A model generated the notes under the pieces. It made no database searches. It saw only the letters and a list, made by a program, of their open reading frames with translations, and had not been told where the DNA came from. Shown in pieces: positions 3,355-4,679 of a stretch of DNA of 64,000 bases; the stretch's first letter is position 1, and every line of letters begins with the position of its first letter. The translations under genes and the position numbers were made by a program. The DNA is from an uncultured bacterium. Lineage in GTDB: Bacteria > Elusimicrobiota > Elusimicrobia > Elusimicrobiales > Elusimicrobiaceae. The stretch is taken from contig CASFOP010000007.1 in assembly GCA_949296525.1 (NCBI GenBank), positions 1-64,000 on the forward strand, given 5' to 3'.

Positions 3355-3786
3355 ATGAAACATCTGTTTGCTGTTTTTATATTGTCTTTTTTGTGTGCCT
3401 GCGCCGGCAATCCGCCGCAGTGGTGGAATCCGTCCGGCTCATACGGTTCGGACGGAAAAGAAAATAATGCTTCTTCTCCCGCCCGGCCTTCTTTGTCTTC
3501 TGTGGTAACGTCGGAAGAGGAAGAGCCTTACCCAATGGAGCAAACCATTGAGCCCGCTGTGGAAAGTTATGAGGAATTAAACCTCTCCCCGCTGGGGGCG
3601 CCGCAGGAAGCGGGGGAGATTTTGCCGGAAACATCCGCCGCTGCTACTGTGCAGGAGCCTGCCGGGACAGAGGAAACGGCGGAACTTTCATTGGAGCAAA
3701 CGGATGTGGAGGCGCCATCTTCCGTCCCGGAAGAAGAGTATTTACCTCCGGACGGCTCGTTGCCTCCGCCCAGCGTTTTGCAATAA
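3355..3786 (+). CDS. Small acidic, proline-rich lipoprotein
   Basis: 143 residues. The N-terminus MKHLFAVFILSFLCACAG is a lipoprotein signal with cleavage expected before a Cys at about 16. The mature part opens with NPPQWWNPSGSYG and continues as a low-complexity region rich in Glu, Pro, Ser and Thr, with no recognisable fold. It looks like an envelope-tethered disordered protein. No family is recognised beyond the PPQWWNPS opening. It is probably transcribed with lipA and ends at the terminator at 3791. Confidence 0.7.
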   Translation: MKHLFAVFILSFLCACAGNPPQWWNPSGSYGSDGKENNASSPARPSLSSVVTSEEEEPYPMEQTIEPAVESYEELNLSPLGAPQEAGEILPETSAAATVQEPAGTEETAELSLEQTDVEAPSSVPEEEYLPPDGSLPPPSVLQ

Positions 3787-3903: not shown

Positions 3904-3939
3904 CCCAAATAAAGACCCCCCGATATCCAATCGGGGGGT
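3904..3939 (-). terminator. Terminator closing the minus-strand candidate RNA
   Basis: A ten-base-pair stem of ACCCCCCGAT (3915-3924) and ATCGGGGGGT (3930-3939) with a five-base loop. On the minus strand it is followed by CTTTATTT, so it ends transcription coming from the promoter at 4286-4313. Confidence 0.8.
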
Positions 3940-4280
3940 TCACGTCGACTCTTTCATTCTCTCTTCCTTTTTAAGTCAGGCCGGGCGACTTATCCGTCCG
4001 GGCAACCTCCACAACCGCACGCTCCGCATCAGGCCGAACCAAGTACATCAACCTCCGCGAAACGCCGCACGTCTGTACACTGCCTGCCGCCAACGCCTGC
4101 ACCACCCGCTTACCAACCGGTGACGCCACATCAGGCGGCCGTTTCCTGTCCATCCGCTCCACGGCCCGGGCCCTACATCCACCCGCCGCCGCGGCACCGC
4201 TCGGTCAGTCCGCTTTACAACCCGCTTTCCTTCCTTCGCGGCCGGCCAGTCACCCATGCACCCAACCTGGGACTGTCTTA
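3915..4280 (-). ncRNA. Candidate structured non-coding RNA of about 365 nt, identity unresolved
   Basis: A consensus sigma-70 promoter (TTGACA, 16-base spacer, TATACT; 4313-4286) fires leftward into this G/C-rich region, and a strong terminator closes it at 3915-3939. Between them no ORF has a convincing ribosome site. Two overlapping short frames exist (4257-4048 from ATG, 4162-3971 from GTG). The sequence has many local pairings, such as GGCCGT with ACGGCC around a 24-base insert. It lacks the conserved P4 sequences of RNase P RNA, the tmRNA ends and the SRP domain IV loop. A small frameshifted protein gene is the main alternative. Confidence 0.5.
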
Positions 4281-4313
4281 CTGACAGTATAAGCGGATTT
4301 AAAAAATTGTCAA
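4272..4313 (-). promoter_or_regulatory. Strong minus-strand promoter with operator-like dyad
   Basis: On the minus strand TTGACA occupies 4313-4308 and TATACT 4291-4286, with a 16-base spacer. A dyad ACTGTC-TTACT-GACAGT (4272-4288) overlaps the -10 and the start point, where a repressor could bind. Confidence 0.75.
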
Positions 4314-4628: not shown

Positions 4629-4679
4629 TTGACAAAAAATCATGCAACTTATATACTATATATGAACATTTGTTCATAT
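4629..4679 (+). promoter_or_regulatory. arsR-ATPase promoter with ArsR/SmtB operator
   Basis: TTGACA (4629-4634), 17-base spacer, TATACT (4652-4657). Immediately downstream lies a perfect 20-base palindrome, ATATGAACATTTGTTCATAT (4660-4679). Its TGAACA-N2-TGTTCA core is the classic ArsR/SmtB-family operator, so the repressor would block its own operon until metal binds. Confidence 0.92.

Follow-up and report, generated by a model that had tools for sequence, protein, structure and literature searches.

A predicted structured RNA of gut Elusimicrobia that keeps a five-codon reading frame against its terminator

Introduction

A stretch of 64,000 nucleotides (hereafter the window) of contig CASFOP010000007.1, from the assembly GCA_949296525.1 of an uncultured bacterium of the family Elusimicrobiaceae, carries on its minus strand a promoter and a terminator with no evident gene between them. 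What does such a unit produce? An earlier reading of the bare letters (the sequence-only reading) had suggested that it may be a new and abundant regulatory RNA with its own promoter and terminator, and had found neither signatures of RNase P RNA, tmRNA or SRP RNA nor any open reading frame with a credible ribosome site. In the open-access literature, coverage of which is incomplete, nothing was found on noncoding RNAs of Elusimicrobia or on tails of the kind described below. Bacterial RNAs are usually classed as coding or noncoding. The RNA predicted here, which we call class 1, is strongly structured and keeps a complete five-codon translation unit.

Results

Transcription unit and its neighbours

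The promoter is of the sigma70 type (TTGACA-16-TATACT), lies at 4313-4286 of the minus strand and matches the consensus at 11 of 12 positions; the intrinsic terminator, a 10-bp stem followed by a T-rich tract, occupies 3939-3915 on the same strand. Counted from the likely start, which is placed at about 4279 from the -10 box, to the end of the T tract at about 3908, the class 1 RNA would span 4279-3908 of the minus strand, about 372 nt with 63% G+C, in good agreement with the consensus promoter, 10-bp terminator and GC-rich transcript of about 365 nt that the sequence-only reading had described. A TATACT-like -10 box at a spacing of exactly 16 bp is present in all 52 class 1 homologues with readable upstream DNA. 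In locus L022 (G006:C138), a promoter of the type CCCTTGACA-16-TATACT precedes tRNA genes and an EF-Tu-like ORF, and for this reason the TTGACA-16-TATACT type may be one that serves highly expressed genes of the genus.

Across the start point lies a dyad, ACTGTC-AGTAA-GACAGT, at 4288-4272 of the minus strand (arms 4288-4283 and 4277-4272). The dyad is present as the sequence-only reading had reported it, and the repressor control which that reading had considered possible found no support. Exact 6-bp arms ACTGTC/GACAGT occur in only four genomes, all close relatives; several other near relatives have dyads of 5 to 7 bp and different sequence at the same position, and in most class 1 homologues the dyad is absent or at chance level. 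Because its exact form is confined to the four close relatives, the dyad was rejected as a defining feature of the class 1 RNA; it is possibly a local operator among close relatives.

A lipoprotein-like ORF on the plus strand (3355-3786) is convergent with the RNA, is not part of it and is its neighbour in most relatives. This fast-evolving ORF has no Pfam or NCBIfam match, carries CAGNPPQWWNPSG near its N terminus and adjoins lipA in many genomes of the genus. In about 35 of 53 loci, class 1 has the lipoprotein gene and lipA beside it, mostly in convergent arrangement, and the lipoprotein gene lies downstream in the opposite orientation in 29 of the 34 class 1 loci where it was found. No co-directional downstream gene is shared by the class 1 loci, and no conserved regulator is adjacent to them. 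The plus strand of the window also carries a promoter TTGACA-17-TATACT followed by a near-perfect palindrome, ATATGAACATTTGTTCATAT, the two together at 4629-4679 and the palindrome at 4660-4679; the latter precedes two genes, one of the ArsR family (4731 onward) and one for a metal-transporting P-type ATPase, and looks like an ArsR/SmtB operator.

Distribution of the class 1 RNA

By covariance models, homologues of class 1 were found in 56 of the 66 genomes that represent the window's genus, whereas the other 274 genomes of the phylum gave no convincing match. All genomes compared are draft metagenome-assembled genomes, and the covariance E-values are approximate. Matches by blastn were obtained in 18 of 61 genomes searched, every one within the genus. 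Model R1, built on the 159 nt at the 3' end of the RNA, matched 55 of the 66 genus genomes before removal of two matches, in G009 and G015, that proved false on inspection; a second model (R2), built from the 53 true members, added three and brought the total to 56, and the true copy of G015 was recovered in the later search. Matches outside the genus to R2, or to the class 2 model R3 described below, turned out to be ordinary gene ends with terminators in those that were read (G102, G118, G123, G125, G254 and G114), and the remaining ones scored no better. The core hairpin and the terminator are present in 56/56 class 1 homologues, and the promoter wherever the upstream DNA can be read.

A scan of named genomes with the core pattern gave 24 matches, in Elusimicrobiota or 'uncultured bacterium' metagenome-assembled genomes and in one Colwellia metagenome-assembled genome, the last being taken as chance. 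From these matches, the homologue-bearing genus is probably the UBA1436/Avelusimicrobium group. Phage records and viral contigs contained no match to the class 1 RNA, and a phage or viral origin was rejected on that account. The homologues range in length from about 230 to 550 nt; two short ones of about 235 nt, in G027 (L060:1421-1656) and G003 (L073:678-910), may represent the minimal class 1 RNA. The new RNA with its own promoter and terminator that the sequence-only reading had suggested is thus strongly supported as a structured RNA, and to judge from these genomes class 1 is an undescribed, genus-wide structured RNA of gut Elusimicrobia.

Secondary structure and comparison with known RNA families

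The window RNA is predicted to be more stable than its dinucleotide shuffles (z -2.8). Its structured body extends over 4269-3977 of the minus strand and is closed by a helix of 4269-4259 with 3987-3977 (helix 1), in which 5 of 11 pairs show changes on both sides. The most conserved element is the core hairpin at 4053-4032 of the minus strand, GGTTGA-TGTACTTGGT-TCGGCC in the DNA and GGUUGA-UGUACUUGGU-UCGGCC in the RNA; outside it the homologues have drifted widely in sequence. Covariation was counted within groups, because MAFFT does not align distant groups reliably outside the core. An alignment of 12 sequences (A7) has 27 compensatory pairs as against 9.4 in shuffles, with 98.8% of its cells paired, and an alignment of 14 sequences that includes the window (A6) has 19 as against 9.9. 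Both counts exceed every shuffle (0/500 reach the observed value) and every slid control, as would be expected of a free-standing structured noncoding RNA.

At the gathering score, Rfam recognises nothing in the whole window other than a tRNA elsewhere, and no family matches the class 1 locus at E up to 10; the Rfam search that the sequence-only reading had put forward as a check thus left the RNA without a family. A cmscan of 14 homologue loci at E up to 1 gave no credible match. Scattered Rfam matches, such as those to BSnc120 and OrzO-P, fall far below the cut-offs, and were set aside as lying outside the RNA or resembling composition noise. RNase P RNA (RF00010) does not match the locus and has its true copy at C14:24427-24762 (E 1.3e-68); tmRNA (RF00023) was likewise rejected, ARAGORN and cmscan being negative at the locus and the true copy lying at C5:60043-60387. 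The models of SRP RNA (RF00169 and RF01854) match neither the locus nor any of the 14 homologue loci. Here the sequence-only reading, to which no signature of these three RNAs was apparent, is borne out. A motif like SRP domain IV, with a GNRA loop, was seen in 3 of 52 class 1 RNAs and in 0 of 56 class 2 RNAs, the E. coli control being positive. The 6S RNA model (RF00013) gave no match at the locus, a silence that means little because the model recovers only 5 of 14 control genomes. In the window's genome, which is 94% complete, neither SRP RNA (RF00169, RF01854) nor 6S RNA (RF00013, a weak model) was detected; an SRP RNA is expected there.

Reading frame at the 3' end

Between the body and the terminator, on the minus strand, lies a short reading frame at 3957-3940, AUG AAA GAG UCG ACG UGA, which would encode MKEST and a stop. 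It is mostly unpaired in the predicted fold, abuts the terminator and is preceded 7 nt upstream of the AUG by a Shine-Dalgarno sequence AAGGA (3969-3965, minus strand). The statement of the sequence-only reading that the unit holds no gene, and no ORF with a credible ribosome site, has to be given up at this point, since the frame is kept in every homologue. Calls were anchored on the terminator in 53 homologues, and three later members were read separately. The anchored calls have an in-frame stop ending no more than 3 nt from the stem in 53/53, and comprise 52 frames of five codons and one of eight; the later members have five, five and four. An AUG with an in-frame stop at the terminator is therefore found in 56/56 homologues, with five codons in 54, eight in one and four in one. 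Shine-Dalgarno-like sequences lie upstream of the AUG in class 1 homologues. Counted from the AUG, the first base of the terminator stem falls at +16 to +22 in class 1; in class 2 it is mostly found at +17 or +20. Bases of the tail are unpaired with a mean probability of 0.59, as against 0.34 in the body, and the tail has the higher value in 51/51.

The encoded peptides, in contrast to the frame, vary freely: they include MKEST, MTQTK, METSR, MHSCK, MKVHS, MTPSN and MRSHT, and are strongly polar in composition. Among the 52 five-codon members the stop is UGA in 42, UAA in six and UAG in four. Since the homologues are related and raw counts overstate their independence, changes were also counted on a tree built from the RNA body with the tail left out, which gave at least 31 changes of the peptide, eight of the stop codon and one of the length, the stop codon changes never breaking the frame. 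In the five-codon members the variable sites are distributed 14/18/16 over the three codon positions, with 33 replacements and seven silent changes, figures that give no sign of purifying selection on the peptide. If the stop were irrelevant, most such changes would have ruined it; it has nevertheless been kept. The comparison of homologues demonstrates selection on the start, frame, stop and position of the unit, and indicates that it is the frame on which selection acts and not the peptide, because frame and stop persist while the peptide changes at least 31 times without third-position bias. The last two bases of the stop codon often pair within the terminator stem, and the stop may be conserved partly for the sake of the terminator, which would leave the fixed frame unexplained.

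Two longer ORFs inside the RNA, of 63 and 69 aa, were rejected as genes, as they are not kept even in close relatives. Conservation of one frame with synonymous bias, which the sequence-only reading had named as evidence that would overturn it, is absent from them. A palindrome, GUCGAC at 3949-3944 of the window or others such as GUGCAC and GACGUC, recurs in the mini-ORFs of both classes, possibly as a loop-loop contact or by coincidence.

A second RNA with the same tail

Matches of model R2 beyond class 1 revealed a second predicted RNA, class 2, which is about 390-440 nt long and has an unrelated-looking body; a covariance model of its own (R3) was built. Class 2 was counted in 57 of the 66 genus genomes, the tail being unreadable in one (G030). 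In all 56 readable copies an ORF of five or six codons stands at the terminator, and the Shine-Dalgarno sequence is weak in some copies. The class 2 tree has at least 33 changes of the peptide, 10 of the stop and four of the length, all in frame. MKEST is found in both classes. The copy in the window's genome lies at C6:52412-52597 and has the mini-ORF MNECT with a UAG stop; in the excerpt of its locus (L166, G000:C6:51400-54400) the 3' part of class 2 is at 1013-1198 on the plus strand, flanked by a gene for an XRE-like regulator and by yggS.

In 56 of 57 loci, class 2 directly follows the XRE-like regulator gene and has the same orientation. The regulator protein has only a marginal HTH_3 match, and a GDSM motif, typical of S24 peptidases, is retained in one member, from which we would read the regulator as S24-like. 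No Rfam family matches the class 2 loci tested, and no class 2-like RNA was seen beside homologous regulators of other genera in loci from four genomes. A pattern search of the window's genome for more such tails gave no clear new RNA; it was not exhaustive, because it missed class 2 as well. The RNase P RNA and tmRNA of this genome have no such tail, and the tail is thus not general to its stable RNAs.

Discussion

A reading that fits these observations, to which we would give an even chance, is that class 1 is a free-standing structured RNA with a ribosome landing pad at its 3' end, which would recruit an initiating ribosome. The closed, covarying body would be followed by a single-stranded tail that forms a minimal translation unit, made of a Shine-Dalgarno sequence, an AUG, four codons and a stop, directly against the terminator hairpin. 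A bacterial ribosome with the AUG in its P site covers the mRNA to about +15. With the leading edge there and the stem at +16 to +22, the tail would offer room for about one initiating ribosome between body and hairpin, and a ribosome initiating at the AUG would just fit ahead of the hairpin. Initiation would be easy, four or five codons would be elongated to the foot of the hairpin, and termination would follow; the selected trait would be the act or position of translation and not the peptide. Docking might keep the body attached to ribosomes, take up initiation capacity, or tie the lifetime or activity of the RNA to translation. Transcription, ribosome binding and a purpose of docking are what we infer from the comparison. 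Somewhat more tentatively, the two classes may be the first examples of RNAs that carry a dedicated 3' ribosome-docking module of five or six codons, fixed against the terminator, selected for ribosome engagement rather than for its peptide and present in at least two structurally distinct RNAs across the genus.

Other readings have to be weighed against the landing pad. The mini-ORF might merely shield the 3' end, or steer decay by way of passing ribosomes, in an RNA that acts in trans by antisense pairing or by binding a protein. The unit is laid out like a free-standing small RNA gene, the homologues have diverged greatly in sequence beyond the core hairpin, and it is the tail that lies open in the fold; we nevertheless consider this unlikely, as neither a target nor a pairing seed was identified and protection of an end has no obvious need for a ribosome start and an exact frame. 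A dual-function RNA, whose product would be the pentapeptide itself (a signal, intracellular or exported, or else a regulator's ligand) and whose body would control peptide synthesis or have a separate action, appears slightly less probable again. Some role of the peptides is conceivable because they are strongly polar; they are also short, one of them occurs in both classes, the ORF and its start signal are kept in every copy (56/56 within the structured class 1 RNA), and class 2 adjoins a regulator gene in nearly all of its loci. On the other hand, the peptides have changed at least 31 and at least 33 times on the two trees without an excess of silent changes, they are neither conserved nor under visible purifying selection, they are too short for a signal peptide or a precursor, and class 1 has no conserved neighbouring regulator.

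Two further readings fare much worse. A translation-dependent attenuator, in which the terminator is opened by a ribosome translating the mini-ORF and RNA polymerase continues into a downstream gene, would account for a stop that abuts the terminator in every copy. It is very unlikely, because the downstream lipoprotein gene has the opposite orientation in 29 of 34 loci and the loci share no co-directional gene. Known leader peptides, moreover, sit ahead of the structured region, whereas the class 1 ORF follows it. That class 1 is a divergent SRP RNA or 6S RNA we regard as the most improbable of these readings. The strong-looking promoter, and the failure of RF00169, RF01854 and RF00013 to find anything in the window's genome, would suit such an RNA; against it stand the cmscan results, without match at the locus (E up to 10) and at the 14 homologue loci (E up to 1), and the rarity of the domain IV-like motif in class 1 (3/52) together with its absence from class 2 (0/56). 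Neither SRP RNA nor 6S RNA is known to carry such a tail.

If ribosomes do dock on the tail, this would be a new way for a structured RNA to be attached to translation, one concealed until now by annotation pipelines that skip ORFs of fewer than 10 codons. Among known systems, OLE, ROOL and GOLLD are large ornate bacterial RNAs that were recognised by covariation and whose function long stayed unknown (PMC12286853). Class 1 shares with them the status of an ornate orphan RNA, but is smaller (about 230-550 nt), is confined to one genus of Elusimicrobiota and has no Rfam match. Like tmRNA (RF00023), it is structured and has a short reading frame through which it would engage ribosomes, yet it has neither a tRNA-like domain nor a match to the tmRNA model. 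The dual-function small RNAs SgrS/SgrT and RNAIII are likewise structured regulatory RNAs that also bear a small ORF; theirs encodes a functional protein that is conserved and tens of residues long, whereas the class 1 ORF has five codons, stands always against the terminator and specifies an unconserved peptide. The E-peptide frame in 23S rRNA and the 'bar' minigenes are also complete units of translation, only a few codons long and equipped with start signals of their own; neither is known to be part of a dedicated RNA gene or to be placed against a terminator. A comparable case is that of the yfr6 or Downstream-peptide RNAs of cyanobacteria, where an RNA about 250 nt long, predicted to be noncoding, proved to hold a short ORF, with a structured 5' leader upstream of an ORF that has a conserved coding signal (PMC2864571). 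In class 1, by contrast, it is the frame that is conserved and not the peptide.
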